From an uncultured Bacilli bacterium (lineage in GTDB: Bacteria > Bacillota_I > Bacilli_A > RF39 > UBA660), in the NCBI GenBank assembly GCA_947627915.1, contig CANQXT010000006.1, forward strand, positions 1 to 40,414: a DNA stretch of 40,414 bases, written 5' to 3'. Below are positions 6,730-40,414 of the stretch, one piece after another. The stretch's first letter is position 1, and the number at the start of each line of letters is the position of its first letter. Below the pieces are notes generated by a model. The model searched no databases. It saw only the letters and a list, made by a program, of their open reading frames with translations, and had not been told where the DNA came from. The position numbers and the translations under genes are program-made.

Positions 6730-7056
6730 TTGCAATTTTTACCAAAAAATGTTCCTCCTAAAATTTTTACCGCTAGTGCAGTAGTAGTTGCTTACCTGTT
6801 AATTGACGACACATCCGCAAACGAGCAGAATGCACTAGGTAACTGGCTTATGCTAGCAGCCCAAGTATTATGTACAAATGCTGCTTATAAACAATTTCAA
6901 CAAGGATTTCAAAGCACTCAATCTGGTGTTGTTACAGGTGGAAATGCTAACAATACTAATCAAAATGATAATTTATCTAGTGATGAGACAATTCAAATGT
7001 TAAAAAAAATGATCAATGCTCTTAATGAAGAAATAGAAGAACTTAAAAAGTCGTAA
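6730..7056 (+). CDS. Small membrane-associated protein with a coiled-coil tail
   Basis: 108 residues starting at TTG, fixed by a near-perfect ribosome binding site (AAAGGAGG, 6 nt spacing). The first half has two apolar stretches (IFTASAVVVAYLLID, residues 12-26; LGNWLMLAAQVLC, 36-48) separated by DDTSANEQNA. Then comes a Gln/Asn/Gly-rich linker and a C-terminal amphipathic helix (IQMLKKMINALNEEIEELKK), a likely coiled coil. The apolar half is also richer in GC than its neighbours, with unusual codons such as GACGACACATCC, suggesting constraint or transfer. Similar short proteins seem familiar from other Firmicutes, but I cannot name the family or a function. Confidence 0.65.
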   Translation: MQFLPKNVPPKIFTASAVVVAYLLIDDTSANEQNALGNWLMLAAQVLCTNAAYKQFQQGFQSTQSGVVTGGNANNTNQNDNLSSDETIQMLKKMINALNEEIEELKKS

Positions 7057-7090
7057 TTACGTCTTAAATAAACTAATTCTTCAAAAAAAT

Positions 7091-7118
7091 TTGACAAATA
7101 AAATAATTATGCTATAAT
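7091..7118 (+). promoter_or_regulatory. Near-consensus sigma-A promoter
   Basis: TTGACA (7091-7096), a 16-nt spacer and TATAAT (7113-7118) with TGC in front of the -10 box. It is the best promoter in the window and drives the gene at 7146. Confidence 0.8.
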
Positions 7119-7145
7119 ATGTAATTGTTTTTGAGGGGGATTAGT

Positions 7146-7862
7146 ATGAAAAAATATAATGATATATGTTTTGAAATGTTAATAAACAAGAATATCCATG
7201 TTAACATAGTACTAAAAATGGAAAGAGATATCTATGCTTTTTATAAAGTATTAGAAAATATAGATACCAAAGATAATTTAATAATGTCTAAACACAGTAT
7301 ATTAGAAATTTGTAAATATGCTCTTAAATTATTAGAATTTATGAAACTTAACATAAAACAAGATAATAATTTGAGTAGATTATTAAAAAGTAATTTAAAT
7401 TCATGTGAATATAGTAAAACTAATTATGATGCTAAAATTGACTTTCCATTTTGGAATGAAAGTTCTAATGCATTTCATAGCCTAAATGGTTTTATAAGTA
7501 GCATTGATAGTATTCATGATAGTGAACTAGCTATTAACACTGCTCACGCATTTATAGATGATTTAGTAGATAAAAATTTACCATTTATAAATCATGTTGA
7601 CACATATAACTCTAATGTTGTTTATGAATTTAAAAATTACTATAACAATAAAATGAATTTAACAGAATCATTAAATATGGCTATTATTAATTTTTATGAT
7701 TTATATACATATATTACATCATTAACTAAAAATTTAATTTATAGTAAAAATGCTTCTATATATGTTAGCGATCATAATTTTGATAATGTTATAAATGATT
7801 GGCGTTATGCCGTTGAGAAGCAACATGAAGTAGTTTCAAAACAACCTGTTTTAACACGTTAA
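7146..7862 (+). CDS. Hypothetical protein behind a very strong promoter
   Basis: 238 residues from ATG 7146, which has GAGGGGG 7 nt upstream; the frame is open 21 nt further but without ribosome site. No signal peptide, transmembrane segment or known motif is visible. The composition suggests an all-alpha protein with long helices (KHSILEICKYALKLLEFMKL; AINTAHAFIDDLVDKNLPFI). It is monocistronic: a consensus promoter ahead and a hairpin terminator behind. Strong expression of a soluble helical protein would fit a structural, stress or RNA-binding role, but that is only a guess. Confidence 0.6.
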   Translation: MKKYNDICFEMLINKNIHVNIVLKMERDIYAFYKVLENIDTKDNLIMSKHSILEICKYALKLLEFMKLNIKQDNNLSRLLKSNLNSCEYSKTNYDAKIDFPFWNESSNAFHSLNGFISSIDSIHDSELAINTAHAFIDDLVDKNLPFINHVDTYNSNVVYEFKNYYNNKMNLTESLNMAIINFYDLYTYITSLTKNLIYSKNASIYVSDHNFDNVINDWRYAVEKQHEVVSKQPVLTR

Positions 7863-33719: not shown

Positions 33720-34610
33720 TTATTCTTTAATTTTTCTAAATACAGGATGTCTTAAGTGATTGCTTTTTGTTCTTTCTAAATATTCTATTTCACATATAAT
33801 ATTATCATCTATATAATATATACCTTGTTCATTATAATCAGCAAAAACAGATTTCTTATTTTTAAATTTTTTTAATTTTTCATATAATTCTTTTTTCTTA
33901 CTCATTACTACTTTACCTACATAATATAATTTATTATTGCGCTTTTCTCCTAAAATTAAAGATACTGTATTATTTTTATTGTTGGTATATCCACCAATTA
34001 CAAAATCTTCCATTTTAATATTTTTAATCTTAATCCAGTTATTACTTCTTTCATTAATATCATAAGTACTATTTTTATCTTTAGCAACAATTCCTTCTAA
34101 ACCAAGTTTTTTAATTTTCTTAAACAAATTAATTCCTTCTTCATTAATATATTTAGTTTTAATAAAAACGTCATTATCTAAATATTTATCTAAAATTTTC
34201 TTTCTTTTTATAAGAGTTAAATTAGTTAAGTCTTCATCTTGATATAAGATATCGAAACAAACAAAGACAACGGGATTATCGATACTTTGACTTTTTATTG
34301 TTAATTTATTTTTTAATCTATTTCTTTGTTGTAATTTATTAAATGATGGTTTATCTTTATCGAATGCTACTATTTCACCATCAAAGATAACTTTTCCTTT
34401 AACTAAGTTTTTTATTTCTTGTAATTCTGGAAACAAATAAGTTAAATCTTGTTTATTACGACTTTGTATAACTACTTCATTTGGAGTAGCAAATACAATA
34501 GCTCTTATGCCATCAAATTTCATTTCATAAATGTAATTACTTGAATCAAATGGTTCATCAATTTCTTTTAGTAACATTGGTTGCCAATCTCTATTTTTCC
34601 ATATATTCAT
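33720..34610 (-). CDS. ligD: ATP-dependent DNA ligase (LigD ligase-domain type)
   Basis: Seals DNA breaks in bacterial non-homologous end joining. The 296-residue protein contains the nucleotidyltransferase motif YEMKFDGIRAI with the AMP-accepting Lys30, the downstream motifs FDGEIVAFD, FVCFDILY, LEGIVAKDKNS and NWIKIK, and a C-terminal OB domain (VIGGYTNNKNNTVSLILGE). The polymerase and phosphoesterase domains of full LigD are absent, so other proteins must process ends. Its ATG overlaps the end of the Ku gene by 4 nt (ATGA), giving translational coupling of the two NHEJ partners. Confidence 0.92.
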   Translation of the reverse strand: MNIWKNRDWQPMLLKEIDEPFDSSNYIYEMKFDGIRAIVFATPNEVVIQSRNKQDLTYLFPELQEIKNLVKGKVIFDGEIVAFDKDKPSFNKLQQRNRLKNKLTIKSQSIDNPVVFVCFDILYQDEDLTNLTLIKRKKILDKYLDNDVFIKTKYINEEGINLFKKIKKLGLEGIVAKDKNSTYDINERSNNWIKIKNIKMEDFVIGGYTNNKNNTVSLILGEKRNNKLYYVGKVVMSKKKELYEKLKKFKNKKSVFADYNEQGIYYIDDNIICEIEYLERTKSNHLRHPVFRKIKE

Positions 34611-35353
34611 TTTTTCTTCAGACTCTTTTCTAGGGCTTCCATTAAATCACTGACTTTTTGTTTTGGTTTCTTTTTTACTTTTTTAACACTTTTACCATCT
34701 AATTTGTCTTCAATAGCGTCTTTAATATTATTTTGATATTCATCTTGATATTTGTTTGGTTCAAATTTACCGGATCTTTCTTCAATAATTTTGATAGCTA
34801 AAGCAAGTTCTTTTTCATCTACTTTATCTATAGTATCTTTTTCAGGTAGTAATACCTCTTCTTGAAAAAATAAAGTAGTCATAACTATACCATAGGGTGT
34901 AAATCTTAAAATGCAATAATAGAATTTACTGCCAATAACTGTTTTAGCTAGAGCGACTTTTTTCACCTTTTTTAAAGCTTCACAAAACAAGTTATAGGCT
35001 TTATTTTTCTTTTCAACATCTAATAGATAACTCTTTTCAAAATAAGTGGGATCTACTTCTTTAATATCAATAAAAGAAACAATATCTATTTCATGTTCAT
35101 TTTCTGGTTTTAATTTATCTAATTCTTCTTTAGAAAAAGTTAAATATTTATTTCTTTCATATTCATAACCTTTGATAATATCTTTTTCTTTAATATTCTT
35201 TTTACAATGTTCACAATATTTAACATACTTAATTCGATGTAAACAACTTTTATGTAATTGATTAAAAGAAGTATCATTATTTTTAATTATTGGATTCATT
35301 ACAACCGGAATATTAACTAGTCCAAAAGAAATATTATTTTTTATATTGGGCAT
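34607..35353 (-). CDS. ku: Ku DNA end-binding protein
   Basis: Homodimeric ring that binds double-strand break ends and recruits the ligase. 248 residues, slightly shorter than usual. Landmarks: ISFGLVNIPVVMNP at the start, then CLHRIKYVKYCEHCKK (the common Ku entry to the bridge, here with a CxxC that could bind zinc), DIIKGYEYERNKYLTFSKEE, and FYYCILRFTPYGIVMTTLFF. The C-terminal tail is very basic (KSVKKVKKKPKQKVSDLMEA), usual for bacterial Ku. Translation starts at ATG with GGTGAT upstream. NHEJ pairs are typical of bacteria with non-dividing stages such as spores. Confidence 0.93.
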   Translation of the reverse strand: MPNIKNNISFGLVNIPVVMNPIIKNNDTSFNQLHKSCLHRIKYVKYCEHCKKNIKEKDIIKGYEYERNKYLTFSKEELDKLKPENEHEIDIVSFIDIKEVDPTYFEKSYLLDVEKKNKAYNLFCEALKKVKKVALAKTVIGSKFYYCILRFTPYGIVMTTLFFQEEVLLPEKDTIDKVDEKELALAIKIIEERSGKFEPNKYQDEYQNNIKDAIEDKLDGKSVKKVKKKPKQKVSDLMEALEKSLKKK

Positions 35354-35418
35354 ATTATCACCAAGTATATTATGAGAAATATTTTTATTTTTTAATCAAA
35401 AAAAGTCTATATTAGCCC

Positions 35419-35853
35419 CTAATTAGGTAAAATTAAAGTTTGACCAATACTTAAAGTATTACTTTTTAAATTATTTAATTCTTTTATTTTATCTACTGTT
35501 GTATTATAAGTTCTAGCTATACTATATAGTGTATCACCACTTTTAACTGTATATGTTAATTTATTATTACTTGAATCAGGTATTTTTAAAACTTGACCAA
35601 TTGATAAAGTGTTACTATTTAAATTATTTAAAGATTTTAAGTCATTTACTGATACGCCAAATTTATTAGCAATACCATACAATGTATCACCTTTCATAAC
35701 TGTATATGTTTTAGCTTTTTCCGTACTAGATGAAGAAATTATTAATTTTTGACCAACACTTAAAGTATTATTTTTTAAATTATTTAAACTTTTTAATTCA
35801 TCAACTGAAATACCAAATTTTCGCGCTATACCATATAATGTATCACCTGATAC
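35419..35853 (-). pseudogene. 5'-truncated LysM protein gene, three LysM repeats remaining
   Basis: Three LysM peptidoglycan-binding repeats are open in one frame: SGDTLYGIARKFGISVDELK, then KGDTLYGIANKFGVSVNDLK and SGDTLYSIARTYNTTVDKIK, each ending with a NTLS(I/V)GQ block. The only in-frame ATG (35697) is inside the second repeat with no ribosome site. Upstream of the first repeat the expected V-K-S-G-D register is lost (KKVSGD) and within 7 codons the stop of the neighbouring gene appears. So the gene has lost its signal peptide, any catalytic domain and its start. The break lies at the palindrome GTATCACCTGATAC, suggesting element insertion. A short two-repeat product from 35697 (92 residues) is possible but unlikely. 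Confidence 0.75.
35840..35853. other. Candidate attachment-site core (palindrome with non-palindromic centre)
   Basis: GTATCACCTGATAC: six-base arms GTATCA/TGATAC around a central CC. Large serine recombinases cross over at a central dinucleotide between imperfect inverted arms, and this lies precisely where the LysM reading frame loses its register, on the recombinase side. Confidence 0.5.
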
Positions 35854-35868
35854 CTTTTTTATGTAGTA

Positions 35869-36255
35869 TTATAGATTAAAATTATCCATGAATTCCATCA
35901 TTTTTTTCATAAATTCTTCTTCATCAAAAAATATATCATTTGGAATACAAATATTATATTTTTCACTAAACTTATGTATAAAATCATCACTAGGCATATC
36001 GTCACTATAACCATTTGTAATATAATCATTATATATAACTTCTTTTATTTCTTCTCTTAATGCTTCGGCATTATCTTTATGTGCATAAACTATACCATAC
36101 ATTATTCCATAACTCACATATATTTCATAATTGTTTATATCTGCGCATGAATATAAATTAACTTCTATTTTATCGTCTAAAATTTCACATTGAATTAAAT
36201 GCTTATCTTTCCAATCTCTTGTTTCAAAATCATCTGTTTTATCTATCCAATTCAT
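35869..36255 (-). CDS. Acidic hypothetical protein adjacent to the element end
   Basis: 128 residues, acidic, alpha/beta with no membrane segment: MNWIDKTDDFETRDWKDK, then YVSYGIMYGIVYAHKDNAEA, and a helix EEFMKKMMEFMDNF at the end. The ribosome site GGGAGG lies 9-10 nt before the ATG. It lies 36 nt downstream of the recombinase gene and 15 nt from the attachment palindrome. Its TAA stop is followed in frame by the truncated LysM repeats, so readthrough would give a fusion. It could be an immunity, anti-restriction or directionality protein of the element; there is no motif to choose between these. Confidence 0.6.
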   Translation of the reverse strand: MNWIDKTDDFETRDWKDKHLIQCEILDDKIEVNLYSCADINNYEIYVSYGIMYGIVYAHKDNAEALREEIKEVIYNDYITNGYSDDMPSDDFIHKFSEKYNICIPNDIFFDEEEFMKKMMEFMDNFNL

Positions 36256-36291: not shown

Positions 36292-37851
36292 CTAAATTTT
36301 ACTAAATGTAAATATAATATCTATCGTTTTATCTTGATAGACATAGATCTTTTCAACTAAATTTATGATTAATTCTCTTGTCGGATTATCTAGTGATAAA
36401 AACTCATTGATGTATTTTTCTATTTTTTTATTATCTATTTTACTCGAGTTTACTTGTTCGCTTTTTAGATTATCAATACTAGCTTTATTATTTGCTATGT
36501 CTTTTTTTAGGCTTTCACTAACTCTTAAATACTGTAATTCATCAATAATACCTTTCAATCTATCCATGTAAGTTTTATCTAAATTTTCAGTTATTTTATT
36601 ATTCACTATTTCCAAATTTTCTATTTGTTTCTTAATACTTAAAGTATCATCACTAAACTCTATATTTCCTATAGAATCTTTAATAGCTTTTTTATCTAGA
36701 TACTTCATACATACATCCTTAATATTATCTAAAATAACTCTTTCTAATGTTTCATAATTATTTGTATGCGTTGTGCAAACATGATATTTTGAATATGTTC
36801 TATAATAATCGCAAGTCGTATAGCTTCTACCAGTCTTATTTTGATATCTTATAGTTATTCGATGTTTACAATCTCCACAATACAAAAGTCCATCTAATAA
36901 ATAAAATCTTTTCTTTTCTGGTCTTTTCACGTTCTTTGGAAGTAAGTACTGCACATAATTAAAAATATTTCTATCAATAATTGCTTCATGCATATTCGGG
37001 ACAATAATATACTCACTAGCATTGTTTTTAACAGTCTTTTTAAGTTTATAATTTATTTTTTTAGTCTTGCCTTGAACTAAATCTCCAACATAAATCTGAT
37101 TAGTTAAAATTGCTTTTATTGTTGTATCAACCCATACACCTTGTGCTTGCGAAATACATTTACCGCGACTCTTTGTATTCCAAATATAATTGTAATAAGA
37201 TGCTGGTGTTTTAATTTTCCTTTTTGTAAGTTCATCTGCAATAGAATGACAAGTATTTCCTTTAAGAGCTAAATCAAATATTAGTTTAACAGTTCTAGTT
37301 TGTTCCTCATTTATTATTAGATGATTTTTATTATTAGGATCTTTCATATACCCAAAAGGACATCTACCCGATACATATAAACCATCTTTCATTCTTGAAT
37401 GCAAACTTGTTTTTACTTTTTTTGAAATATCCTTTGCATACATATCATTCATTATGGCTTTAAAAGGTGCAATATCATTATTAGTATTATCTAAAAAAGT
37501 ATCAATACCATCATTTATAGCAATATACCTTATATTATTATTTGGAAAATATTTTTCAATAAGTTCACCAGTACCAATATAATCTCTACCTAATCTTGAC
37601 ATATCTTTAGTAATAATCATATTTATTTTACCATTTTCAATATCCTTAATCATTCTTTTAAAAGCAGGTCTTTCAAAATTAGTTCCCGTAAATCCATCAT
37701 CAACATACTCATCTATAACATTATAATTATTTTCTTTTACATATTGATTAAGTAAAGTTCTTTGACTAACAATACTATCAGATTCAATATTTCCATCATC
37801 TCTTGATAATCTTATATATAATCCTACATTAAAACTACTATTCCCATTCAT
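36292..37851 (-). CDS. Large serine recombinase (site-specific integrase)
   Basis: 519 residues. The catalytic domain begins VGLYIRLSRDDGN with nucleophile Ser16, followed by YVDDGFTGTNFERPAFKRMI and MSRLGRDYIGTGE. Then come the recombinase domain (GRCPFGYMKDPNNKNHLI), a zinc ribbon (LYCGDCKHRI and later CDYYRTYSKYHVC) and a coiled coil (about 405-470). This is the layout of TndX/TnpX/CcrA-type transposon integrases, which excise and insert elements without host factors. The start overlaps the stop of a 58-residue ORF by 1 nt (TAATG). It is the engine of the element at the right of the window; its target is probably the LysM gene. Confidence 0.95.
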   Translation of the reverse strand: MNGNSSFNVGLYIRLSRDDGNIESDSIVSQRTLLNQYVKENNYNVIDEYVDDGFTGTNFERPAFKRMIKDIENGKINMIITKDMSRLGRDYIGTGELIEKYFPNNNIRYIAINDGIDTFLDNTNNDIAPFKAIMNDMYAKDISKKVKTSLHSRMKDGLYVSGRCPFGYMKDPNNKNHLIINEEQTRTVKLIFDLALKGNTCHSIADELTKRKIKTPASYYNYIWNTKSRGKCISQAQGVWVDTTIKAILTNQIYVGDLVQGKTKKINYKLKKTVKNNASEYIIVPNMHEAIIDRNIFNYVQYLLPKNVKRPEKKRFYLLDGLLYCGDCKHRITIRYQNKTGRSYTTCDYYRTYSKYHVCTTHTNNYETLERVILDNIKDVCMKYLDKKAIKDSIGNIEFSDDTLSIKKQIENLEIVNNKITENLDKTYMDRLKGIIDELQYLRVSESLKKDIANNKASIDNLKSEQVNSSKIDNKKIEKYINEFLSLDNPTRELIINLVEKIYVYQDKTIDIIFTFSKI

Positions 37852-38027
37852 TAATTCATACTCCTTTCACTTTGGGAATAATGAGTATGCTTGAATGGTA
37901 CCTCCTTATTTAAAATATTGCAAGTCATATATTGTTTTTCTATTTCTATTTTTAATACATTAGTTATTATTTCATTTAAAGATTTCCCATTTTCTTTAAA
38001 TTTTAAATTAACTTTGTATTTAACCAT
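37851..38027 (-). CDS. 58-residue ORF translationally coupled to the recombinase
   Basis: Starts ATG 38027 (MVKYKVNLKFKENGKSLNEI) behind GGAGG with an 11-nt spacer and ends SERSMN with TAA sharing its last A with the recombinase ATG. The first 30 residues look like a small alpha/beta or amphipathic-helix protein; the tail is rich in His and Lys. Comparable tiny ORFs precede serine recombinases in Firmicute transposons and some act as directionality factors. I cannot assign the family. Coding is supported by the 1-nt overlap. Confidence 0.55.
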   Translation of the reverse strand: MVKYKVNLKFKENGKSLNEIITNVLKIEIEKQYMTCNILNKEVPFKHTHYSQSERSMN

Positions 38028-38110
38028 AGAGTTCTATACCTCCAATAAATTCTATGGCTTTAATTTTTAAATTAGTAATATTATTTGGTGTAATAGTACA
38101 CCTAACAATA

Positions 38111-38191
38111 TTACTTATTATTATAAACCTCCTGATTGTTCATTATTTGATTAAGTATTTTTTCTCTTAAATTAAAATTAAATCTTAGCAT
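38111..38191 (-). CDS. 26-residue ORF upstream of the recombinase
   Basis: Starts MLRFNFNLREKILNQIM and ends NNQEVYNNK. Its ATG directly follows the TAA of an 8-residue ORF (38192-38218; MHQEKEMI) which has a fine ribosome site (GGAGG, 5 nt from its ATG). AAGGAGATG is embedded in that leader and serves the 26-residue ORF. Such a chain of tiny coupled ORFs suggests translational control rather than functional proteins. Confidence 0.45.
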   Translation of the reverse strand: MLRFNFNLREKILNQIMNNQEVYNNK

Positions 38192-38218
38192 TTATATCAT
38201 CTCCTTTTCTTGATGCAT
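38192..38218 (-). CDS. 8-residue leader peptide
   Basis: MHQEKEMI, started at ATG 38218 behind GTGGAGGT and stopped by TAA immediately before the next ATG. Probably a leader peptide whose translation opens the downstream ORFs. Confidence 0.35.
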   Translation of the reverse strand: MHQEKEMI

Positions 38219-38227
38219 GATACCTCC

Positions 38228-38466
38228 ACTAAAAAGAAGAGTCAAGTCATTAAGTAAAGAAAGTTTTGTCTATCATCCTATAATACTTACAAATGTATTA
38301 ATTTTTAAAAAAGCAGGATAAGATGTTTACACATCAATACTAAACTATCACTTATTTCATAAGAGTTTAGCATTGTGTAAAACTTATTTCGTACTTACGA
38401 AATTCATCCTACTTTGTAGGTTACTATAAAGGATAAAGTTAATAATATCAATACATTAGAGCATAA
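38228..38466. other. Structured non-coding leader or transfer/recombination region of the element
   Basis: About 240 bp without coding potential. It holds a 50-nt imperfect palindrome (38329-38378; outer arms ACACAtcAAT/ATTGTGT, CTAAACT/AGTTTAG, inner CTTAT/ATAAG), a hairpin ATTTCGT/ACGAAAT (38387-38404), a hairpin CCTAC/GTAGG (38409-38421), and the repeated motif TCATCCTA at 38273 and 38406, with further copies in the adjoining terminator. It may be the long leader of the recombinase transcript, a regulator binding region, or an origin of transfer. Confidence 0.5.
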
Positions 38467-38467
38467 A

Positions 38468-38517
38468 AAAATCATCCTATTTTTTATTTTTATATAATTT
38501 TTATAGGATGATTAAAA
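38468..38517 (-). terminator. Terminator of the restriction-modification operon
   Basis: Minus-strand arms ATCATCCTAT and ATAGGATGAT, loop of about 23 nt, then T7. It follows the DpnII-type nuclease gene by 3 nt. Confidence 0.8.
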
Positions 38518-38519
38518 TT

Positions 38520-39377
38520 TTATAAATTTTCTAAAACACCATGTTCAAGATCATCAATATTATATAAAGTATCTAATTCATTAAATGTTTCTTCAAGATT
38601 TTTTCTAGCACTATTCCAACCAGTTCCATCAGTAAACCAAATAAATGTTACTCCATCGACGTTTTTAGATTCTTGAGCTAACATTTTATAACTTCTAGCA
38701 GTCTCATTTAATTTAGAGCCACCACCAGAATAAAAATTAGTTTCAATAACATATACTTGTTTTTCGGTTTTAATAACGAAATCAAATCTTTTGGTTGATG
38801 TATTATTACCTGACATTTCACTTAAATCAAGATCCCATTTATTTTCTATATCTTTTAAGTACATTTCTTTAAAATAGTTAACATCCTTTTTATAACCTGC
38901 TTTGATGATATATGATTCAACTAAATTTTCCATTAGATGTCCACCACGATTTTTTCTTCCATTTGAATCAAGACCAACTTCAATACCTAGAACATAATCA
39001 TATAAATTATTTATAATGTGATTTTGTAATAAATCAAATAATCCTGTTTCTCGCATAAATCTAATATAATCTTGCATAGAATATACCATTTTATTAAATT
39101 TAAATAAATATTCATTAATTTCATCTTTAACAAAAATTTCTCTTGAACGAACTGCAAGCAAAAGTGGAATACATTCTAAAGTTTCTGGGTATTTAACCAA
39201 AATATTTTGAAATTCTTTCTCAATATTTTTACTACCTATTAAAGAATTTAAAATATTGAGTTCTACTTTTACTTTATCTACATTTTTATAAATCTTTTCA
39301 AAATCAACATAATAAGTATAATCAGATATACTAGTTTTAAATTTGCTTAACCATTCATTAAAATTTCTTTTATTCAT
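38520..39377 (-). CDS. DpnII-type GATC restriction endonuclease
   Basis: 285 residues from ATG 39377 (a TTG three codons upstream is also possible). The family signature is plain: LYDYVLGIEVGLDSNGRKNR followed by GGHLMENLVESYI, and the PD-(D/E)XK core RFDFVIKTEKQVYVIETNFY, then GGSKLNETARSYK and GVTFIWFTDGTGW. DpnII cuts unmethylated GATC. The ATG overlaps the end of the preceding small gene by 8 nt (ATGAATAA). It is the last gene of a DpnII-type operon and, as usual, the methylases come first. Confidence 0.93.
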   Translation of the reverse strand: MNKRNFNEWLSKFKTSISDYTYYVDFEKIYKNVDKVKVELNILNSLIGSKNIEKEFQNILVKYPETLECIPLLLAVRSREIFVKDEINEYLFKFNKMVYSMQDYIRFMRETGLFDLLQNHIINNLYDYVLGIEVGLDSNGRKNRGGHLMENLVESYIIKAGYKKDVNYFKEMYLKDIENKWDLDLSEMSGNNTSTKRFDFVIKTEKQVYVIETNFYSGGGSKLNETARSYKMLAQESKNVDGVTFIWFTDGTGWNSARKNLEETFNELDTLYNIDDLEHGVLENL

Positions 39378-39729
39378 AATTATCAAAAACCTCCAATAAT
39401 TTTTTTACTGCTACTTCTTTTAGTTTATCTTGAAAACATTTATTTATTAAGGTATCAATATCATTTATTATAGTATCAATTGTAACAATATAATTATCTA
39501 AATATTTATAATTTGTTTTGTATTTATCATTGACTTGATTTACTAATTCAATTACAATTCTATCTATATTTTCTTTACTTATTTTATTTTCTAATTTTAA
39601 AAGTGCTATTCCTCTTTCTATTCTTTGTAAATATTCTTTATCTTGTTTATATCCACGAGTTTTTTTATCTAAAGAATATACCGCTTCCATAAATTCACCT
39701 ATTTTTTTTAGGAATTCTCTTTCATCCAT
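39370..39729 (-). CDS. Small helical protein inside the DpnII-type operon
   Basis: 119 residues from ATG 39729, whose first codons overlap the end of the methyltransferase gene by 8 nt (ATGGATGA), with a second 8-nt overlap into the nuclease gene. The protein is all helical: FLKKIGEFMEAVYSLDKK, YLQRIERGIALLKLENK, YIVTIDTIINDIDTLINK, VAVKKLLEVFDNYE. No HTH signature is clear. The classic DpnII operon has dpnM, dpnA and dpnB with nothing between the last two, so this gene is an insertion in the order. Possible roles are control protein, nuclease inhibitor or companion subunit. Confidence 0.6.
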   Translation of the reverse strand: MDEREFLKKIGEFMEAVYSLDKKTRGYKQDKEYLQRIERGIALLKLENKISKENIDRIVIELVNQVNDKYKTNYKYLDNYIVTIDTIINDIDTLINKCFQDKLKEVAVKKLLEVFDNYE

Positions 39730-40414
39730 TATTATCACTTTCCTTTCTTCTTATTGTTAAATCTAAAAATTCTTTTTCTTTTTCTATACCAATATATTTT
39801 CTATTTAATCTACTTGCAACAATTCCAGTGGTACCACTACCATTAAAAGGATCTAGAATTAAATCCCCTTCATCAGTCGAAGCCAAAATTATTTTTTCTA
39901 ATATTTCCATAGGTTTTTGTGTGGGATGTTTTCCACATTTTTTCTCACTAGGCTTTGTTAAAGATGATTCCCAAACATCTTTCATTTGCTTTCCACCATT
40001 TAATTCTCTCATTAAAGAATAATTAAATTTATGTTTAGCTTTCTTTATATCCTTTTTTGCCCAAAGAATAGTTTCTGTAGAATGTACAAAATATCTACAA
40101 CTTATATTTGGCGGTGGATTTAATTTTTTCCAAGTTATATTATTTATTATTTTAAATTCCTCTTGTTCTAATGCCATACCTATTGAATAAATATTATGCA
40201 TTGTACCGCTAATCCAAATAGTACCATCATCTTTTAAAACTTGATGACATAATTTAATCCATTTTTGATTAAACTTATGTTTTTCTTCTATGTTAATAGA
40301 TTTATCCCAATCACCTTTATTAACAGATACCATTTTTCCACCACTACAAGAAATACCATCACTAGACAAAAAATAAGGAGGGTCTGCAAATATCATATCA
40401 ATACTTTTAGGTTC
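39722..40414 (-). CDS. DpnA-type DNA adenine methyltransferase (partial, runs off the window)
   Basis: The 5' end lies beyond the window; 230 residues are visible, open to the last base. It is a beta-class N6-adenine methylase: the catalytic DPPYFLSSDG comes first, and the AdoMet-binding motif LDPFNGSGTTGIVA comes near the C terminus, with KHPTQKPMEILEKII before it. This fits DpnA (M2.DpnII), which methylates GATC, also on single strands. The adjoining DpnII-type nuclease supports that. A DpnM homologue is expected just outside the window. Confidence 0.9.
   Translation of the reverse strand, partial: EPKSIDMIFADPPYFLSSDGISCSGGKMVSVNKGDWDKSINIEEKHKFNQKWIKLCHQVLKDDGTIWISGTMHNIYSIGMALEQEEFKIINNITWKKLNPPPNISCRYFVHSTETILWAKKDIKKAKHKFNYSLMRELNGGKQMKDVWESSLTKPSEKKCGKHPTQKPMEILEKIILASTDEGDLILDPFNGSGTTGIVASRLNRKYIGIEKEKEFLDLTIRRKESDNNG

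Follow-up and report, generated by a model that had tools for sequence, protein, structure and literature searches.

How does a chain of very small open reading frames come to stand before a large serine recombinase gene, and could it set how much of the enzyme is made? The question is raised by contig C6 of an uncultured Bacilli bacterium whose genome assembly comprises 1.29 Mb in 90 contigs; the whole stretch of this contig that was analysed, 40,414 nucleotides, is called the window here. A preliminary description, drawn from the letters of the window, had listed ORFs of 8, 26 and 58 codons leading into the recombinase and a further frame with GGAGG and only ATA/ATT starts. All of them lie on the minus strand where it had placed them (Table 1), and so do the TAA-ATG abutment of the 8- and 26-codon ORFs, the TAATG overlap of the 58-codon ORF (ORF58) with the recombinase, and the stop of the further frame inside the ORF58 start. 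The arrangement is real and unusual. From the comparison with relatives set out below, we consider it reasonably probable that the chain serves an integrase operon as its control leader and acts as a serial coupling relay, carried by a small integrative and probably mobilizable element.

Table 1. Features of the recombinase operon and its surroundings in the window
Feature	Position	Strand	Details
Three LysM repeats	35415..35848	-	3′ part of interrupted target gene; LysM recognised by eye; own small HMM
attR	35841..35864	-	Right attachment arm fused to LysM coding sequence
128-aa ORF	35869..36255	-	Between recombinase stop and right end
Large serine recombinase	36292..37851	-	519 aa; operon end; PF00239 3.4e-22, PF07508 2.9e-21, PF13408 2e-9
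H2	37837..37882	-	Possible hairpin TATTCCCA..TGGGAATA around recombinase start
ORF58	37851..38027	-	Conserved small protein, 58 codons; TAATG one-base overlap with recombinase start
Middle ORF (ORF35)	38020..38124	-	34 codons in the window; start ATA; stop inside ATGGTTAA of ORF58
H1	38022..38059	-	Hairpin CCATAGA..GGAGG..TCTATGG; ORF58 start in 3′ arm, its ribosome site in loop
H0	38074..38115	-	42-nt palindrome/hairpin right after middle-ORF start
Leader ORF	38111..38191	-	26 codons; ends 14 nt into middle ORF
8-codon ORF	38192..38218	-	Abuts (TAA-ATG) the 26-codon leader ORF
Likely promoter	38217..38245	-	TTGACT-N17-TATCAT; 10/12 consensus matches
R1	38265..38421	-	Covarying structured element; probable oriT
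Cargo	38520..40414	-	DpnII-type restriction endonuclease, 122-aa ORF, N6/N4 DNA methylase (runs off contig)

The recombinase carries resolvase, recombinase and zinc-ribbon domains in this order, all three above the Pfam cut-offs. A contig scan yielded 510 relatives; the analysis used the best 80 (L080-L159), with 79-92% identity. Leader counts refer to 69 loci: besides the window, these are the 68 relatives in which 450 nt or more precede the recombinase. The other 12 of the 80, with less than 450 nt upstream, were left out, and L114 was omitted from one alignment (A5) owing to a deletion. A leader is called full when the left half of the palindrome H0 is present, as in 47 loci, and truncated in the other 22. 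All these sequences share descent, so that p-values overstate.

A start equivalent to that of ORF58 precedes the recombinase in all 69 loci (ATG in 68, ATC in L102). The end of ORF58 runs into the recombinase start in 63 of them, with an overlap of one base in 48 and of 4-17 bases in 15; in the remaining six (L094, L098, L116, L147, L148, L149) it stops 4-5 nt short. The comparison of synonymous with non-synonymous change, which the preliminary description had proposed as a check, points to purifying selection on ORF58 in its own frame, with a pN/pS of 0.58, whereas the two shifted frames give 0.92 and 1.25 (54 sequences; 15 of the 69 with no stop before the assumed recombinase start were omitted). 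Split by position, the same 54 sequences give 0.39 in codons 1-32 and 0.84 in the remainder; over codons 3-32 the ratio is 0.34 in the 47 full-leader loci and 0.40 in the 22 truncated ones. Because pN/pS is low over about the first 32 codons, the first half of ORF58 is, by this measure, a genuine conserved protein; the second half, which carries the recombinase ribosome site, is by the same measure loosely held.

The middle ORF (ORF35), the frame that had been described as having ATA/ATT starts, is real, but its relatives begin it with ATG: among the 47 full leaders the start codon is ATG in 40, ATA in three (window, L085, L112) and ATT in one (L099). On this ground the ATA of the window looks derived, and since the middle ORF lacks an ATG there, the relay may be weaker or damped in this copy. 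The frame is open in 42 of the 47 (35, 33 and 34 codons in 23, 13 and 6 loci, respectively), is preceded by a ribosome site in 45, and is both open and ATG-started in 39, the other eight including the window; it is broken in L099, L106, L124, L131 and L144. Its stop falls inside the ORF58 start in 67 of all 69 loci, within ATGGTTAA in 62, ATGGTTGA in three, and ATCGTTAA and ATGGGTAA in one each. The pN/pS of ORF35 is 1.04 (39 sequences), with 0.76 and 0.60 in the shifted frames. These values suggest a frame that is maintained without visible residue selection, as expected if its reading matters; RNA structure limits silent change and lowers pS in ORF35, so that residue selection may act there nonetheless.

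Upstream of this, the leader ORF runs into the middle ORF and stops after 14 nt of it in 41 of the 47 full leaders. Its length varies, with 9-13 codons in many loci and 15-20 in others, 26 in the window, L081, L085, L089 and L090, and 54 in L084, L096 and L122. Since the 26-mer of the window matches both ends of the 54-codon form, it is apparently an internal-deletion relic of a ribbon-helix-helix (RHH)-like gene. The longer leader ORFs resemble RHH proteins, and searches with RHH-clan profiles gave matches below the cut-off for L115 (RHH_5, E 0.0016; CopG_antitoxin, 0.002) and weaker ones, likewise below it, for L108, and no match for L084 and L106. The 8-codon ORF, which the preliminary description had counted as part of the chain, drops out of it: a unit abutting the leader ATG occurs in only three of the 69 loci (window, L081, L085), and the ORF is probably untranscribed because its ATG stands within the second hexamer (TATCAT) of the likely promoter, the −10 box, upstream of the expected transcript start. 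A scan of 801 nt found 10 promoter-like sites, compared with 6.8 ± 2.6 in shuffles, one other of which also has 10/12 matches. The case for the listed promoter therefore lies not in its score but in its recurrence in full leaders, where it is matched in 35 of 47, as against one of 22 truncated leaders (L145).

The RNA predicted for this region is highly structured. The window leader folds at −78.4 kcal/mol, compared with −56.2 ± 4.7 in shuffles (z −4.75; 0/100), and RNAalifold recovers both H0 and H1 from the 47 full leaders. In the inner helix of H0, five of seven pairs show changes on both sides, and when the partner is slid along, pairing drops from 95% to 45% or less. H1 has 97% of its cells paired and is nearly invariant in the close set. 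When the columns of H0 and H1 were shuffled, the 22 cells with changes on both sides were exceeded in none of 500 shuffles, and the six pairs changed on both sides were reached in 58 of 500 (mean 4.3). H2, with 87% of cells paired and weak covariation, was not chosen by RNAalifold and is kept as a possible hairpin. An Rfam search returned one sub-threshold match, elsewhere. The predicted probability that the ORF58 start codon is unpaired is 0.0007 in the window and 0.001 as the median of the 69 loci, in contrast to a median of 0.47 for control start codons, drawn from 250 further genes in the same loci. The recombinase start has a median of 0.10 and, in the window, a value of 0.37 (37th percentile), at which it is not unusually paired. 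Among 15 distant relatives, six have a small-ORF start with an unpaired probability below 0.15 (p 0.048 against the controls). Hairpins of other sequence hold this start in L016, L017, L018 and L024, and it is mostly paired in L025 and L029. No occlusion of the start codon was seen in L015, L022, L027, L028, L031 and L033. The recombinases of L016 and L018 show 55-56% identity, and in L016 an H0-like palindrome is present as well, along with an ORF of 36 codons that ends inside the small-ORF start.

It is conceivable that H0 and H1 act as DNA rather than RNA, either as an operator for the RHH-like protein or as single-strand structures of a transfer region next to oriT. H0 is a 42-bp palindrome near an oriT-like element, and in pLS20, a MOBL system, oriT is a binding site of RHH proteins, as far as the available text of the source goes (PMC5675868). 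We regard such a role as doubtful, because the inner arms of H0 vary in sequence yet stay complementary, in L016 as well, and H1 sits on a start codon. The position of H0 between the promoter and ORF58, along with the truncated loci, first suggested that it was an attachment site; this was ruled out by the conserved ends of the element, which sit at the recombinase stop and in LysM genes.

The promoter-like site, leader ORF, ORF35, ORF58 and recombinase thus form a series in which stop and start signals overlap, and most full-leader relatives keep this arrangement. As this chain of overlapping frames is kept in many related elements, it suggests a step-by-step throttle on integrase production. 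Ribosomes would load on the leader ORF, finish just inside ORF35 and start on it; the reading of ORF35 would melt H1, the hairpin hiding the ORF58 start; ribosomes would stop inside that start and then reinitiate there; and the reading of ORF58 would bring them to the recombinase start. Little recombinase would be made because each hand-over would pass only part of the ribosomes, and the enzyme would always be made together with ORF58. ORF35 would have to be read, with no need for a useful peptide. Coupling with a sequestered ribosome site is classic in the MS2 replicase and in ribosomal protein operons. The modelled leader is alike in that upstream reading would open a hairpin over the next start, and it differs in having several steps in series and one ORF without visible residue selection. 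Such a leader is a candidate for how small mobilizable elements hold their integrase low.

Stop-start overlaps are common in bacterial operons, and those of the leader could simply reflect an ordinary compact operon in a small AT-rich genome, without any control function; the relaxase gene of pLS20 overlaps its upstream gene in the same manner, according to the text available (PMC5675868). An operon of this kind is an unlikely explanation, given that frame, stop position and ribosome site of ORF35 are maintained with no selection visible on its residues and that the ORF58 start is predicted to be far more occluded than the starts of the control genes. As a conserved architecture, the translational relay put forward in the preliminary description is well supported by the three linked overlaps, the kept frame and the predicted occlusion of the ORF58 start.

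Relatives that keep the recombinase and lose the leader ORFs had been named there as evidence against a relay, and they do exist in part: neither the left half of H0 nor the ORF35 start is present in the 22 truncated loci. These loci nevertheless keep ORF58 together with the recombinase, and the other 47 of the 69 keep the full leader. On the tree, the truncation trait requires 13 changes, at least six of them on well supported branches. The end branches of the recombinases have a median of 0.165 with truncated and 0.065 with full leaders (Mann-Whitney p 9e-6, relatedness ignored), and by this sequence measure the recombinases with truncated leaders evolve faster. This fits a decay of the truncated copies after leader loss, an order of events that we infer. 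An R1 match lies immediately upstream of two truncated loci (L105, L145). The leader of the window copy could itself be a relic, decaying and without function, as its RHH-like gene is down to 26 codons and its ORF35 starts with ATA. This seems improbable, since the copy retains its promoter-like site, its ribosome sites and frames and both hairpins, H0 and H1, and the recombinase is complete in frame and domains.

For the ORF58 product the likeliest role would be that of a recombinase partner, either a directionality factor or a stabiliser; a conserved small protein beside the recombinase fits a directionality factor or such a partner. If ORF58 is a directionality factor or obligatory partner of the serine integrase, the overlap may just fix the stoichiometry of the two. 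Purifying selection on ORF58 even behind truncated leaders is in its favor, and so is a precedent, the 72-residue directionality factor CD1234 of the C. difficile skin element, in the text available (PMC5025042). Moreover, among 16 distant recombinases examined (37-56% identity), 15 are preceded by a small ORF judged similar by eye; the sixteenth, L020, has an unlike 73-aa ORF ahead of it and was omitted from the distant set. A profile of the close-set ORF58 compared with an alignment of the 15 distant upstream ORFs gave 97.5% probability, a score to which four of the 15 are close enough to contribute. Against this stand profile and homology searches, which found no known family above threshold and no homology to a known directionality factor, and an AlphaFold model (pLDDT 68.6, pTM 0.37, one helix) too weak to serve for fold comparison. 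A search in plasmids gave no match to ORF58. The available part of a 2017 review of IMEs likewise reports no directionality factor identified or proposed for serine-integrase IMEs and states that the Tn4451 enzyme needs none (PMC5704250). We hold this explanation, in which the overlap merely sets the ratio, as possible and short of even chances, and a recombinase-partner role of ORF58 as such is entertained with the same tentativeness; the relay and such a role are mutually compatible. A broader combination, in which a relay situated immediately behind oriT holds down the integrase of a mobilizable element lacking a relaxase, and in which ORF58, the one clearly coding step, acts as directionality factor or partner of the integrase and has counterparts before many serine recombinases of gut Bacilli, appears rather less likely. 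ORF58 in any case represents a conserved small-protein family beside serine recombinases, a setting for which the review, in the part available, reports no directionality factor (PMC5704250).

TnpW (PF14202), encoded near TnpX-like recombinases, resembles ORF58 in being short, with a strand followed by a helix by eye. The identification of ORF58 as TnpW was rejected; ORF58 has no profile match at E ≤ 1. TnpW has no match at the ORF58 position in the source genome (G000). TnpW-like small ORFs do occur near serine recombinases in loci of another genome (G072), and hhalign against five of them gave 0.2% for ORF58 and 26.5% for the 15 distant upstream ORFs.

The sequence comparison indicates that the recombinase belongs to a small integrative element of gut bacteria that inserts into LysM genes. 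A conserved right end, ACATAAAAAnTGTATCnGGnGATA, is found in 78 of the 80 loci and a left end, GATACnnTTTTTATGGGGAATAATGAG, in 49, with up to 5-6 substitutions allowed in the searches. Of the 68 relatives with leaders, 45 have both ends around the recombinase, which delimit elements of 1.8-7.9 kb; LysM adjoins the right end in 41 of these and the left end in 20. The left end of the window's own element was not found on the contig, which ends. The two ends, read together, suggest a palindromic attP with the core GG and, as target, the GDT codons of LysM genes. An integron-like cassette array was ruled out, the 150-nt repeats beside the recombinase being LysM codons. Cargo genes of the window match PF04556 (2.3e-110) and PF01555 (3.4e-63). 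Ten cargo proteins from nine other loci were scanned, and defence-like families appeared in four (OLD/AriA-like ATPase, PDC-S05, PDC-M33A and Fic/PDC-S72). Natural recombinase/att pairs with a repeated and well defined target, the LysM GDT codons, may be at hand. The serine-integrase IMEs of the Tn4451 type and those inserted into rumA in streptococci are similar in having a single serine recombinase, a short shared core and a dispensable-gene target, as described in the available part of the review (PMC5704250). The present element differs from them in its target, in its leader with linked ORFs and in the conserved ORF58, and no relaxase was recognised in it. No LysM-targeting serine-recombinase element and no such leader is named among the open-access literature matches listed.

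R1, a strongly covarying structure upstream of the promoter, shows changes on both sides in 10 of its 26 RNAalifold pairs (42 sequences) and a fold z of −4.38; CCTAC, GTAGG, ATCCTGC and TAGGAT offer possible alternative pairings. Its covariance model has 29 matches in 17 of 100 genomes, the source genome included, one match being an opposite-strand echo; four (G007, G057:C12, G002, G081) were left out of the inspection of context. Among 14 further regions, R1 stands ahead of mobilization genes in six that resemble conjugative elements (L207, L208, L212, L213, L216, L217); a serine recombinase lies nearby in L206, L209, L211 and L215 (the last two by eye), an HTH-like ORF in L205; L204 is a LysM-flanked copy with no recombinase, and L210 and L214 have no clear assignment. 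Two of the four candidate relaxases tested exceed the MobL cut-off (L207, L212) and those of L216 and L217 have no MobL match; the coupling protein of L207 is clear. Because it precedes mobilization genes in MobL-type conjugative elements, R1 is probably an oriT. With no relaxase recognised in any of the small elements, these are probably mobilizable without a relaxase of their own. The relaxosome region of pLS20 (oriT, aux1, aux2, rel) is alike in several respects: R1 stands upstream of RHH-like and MobL-like genes in the ICE-like relatives, some small elements have an RHH-like ORF behind R1, and stop-start overlaps of genes occur in both. It differs in that the small elements show no relaxase and the integrase operon comes after the putative oriT.

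Several further observations concern the surroundings. The 128-aa ORF at 35869-36255 (−) is absent from the same place in many relatives, which have a direct junction there; additional DNA between the recombinase stop and the right end also occurs in L080, L081, L083 and L105, among others. Directly behind the interrupted LysM gene, at 33720-35353 (−), lie Ku-like and ATP-dependent DNA ligase-like ORFs, an NHEJ pair by eye. After the cargo gene, a terminator-like hairpin was seen by eye at 38471-38511 (−); the scan that gave the promoter-like sites has none on its list. R1 shares the TAGGATGA motif of this hairpin, and in several relatives the cargo ends in hairpins of a similar kind. On the 6668-base contig of L099, two recombinase-end/LysM copies, 71% identical over 953 nt, stand 5715 bases apart, a spacing that therefore indicates two related junctions side by side and not a circle. 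The source genome holds a second DpnII-like restriction-modification copy by ORF likeness (L204; contig C48, 2238-4700), with R1 and then a LysM gene; it is LysM-flanked, with no recombinase and no recognised ends. Finally, a broken relative of the recombinase, 44% identical in its front part, lies on contig C54 of the same genome at 7042-7797 (L003, L004).
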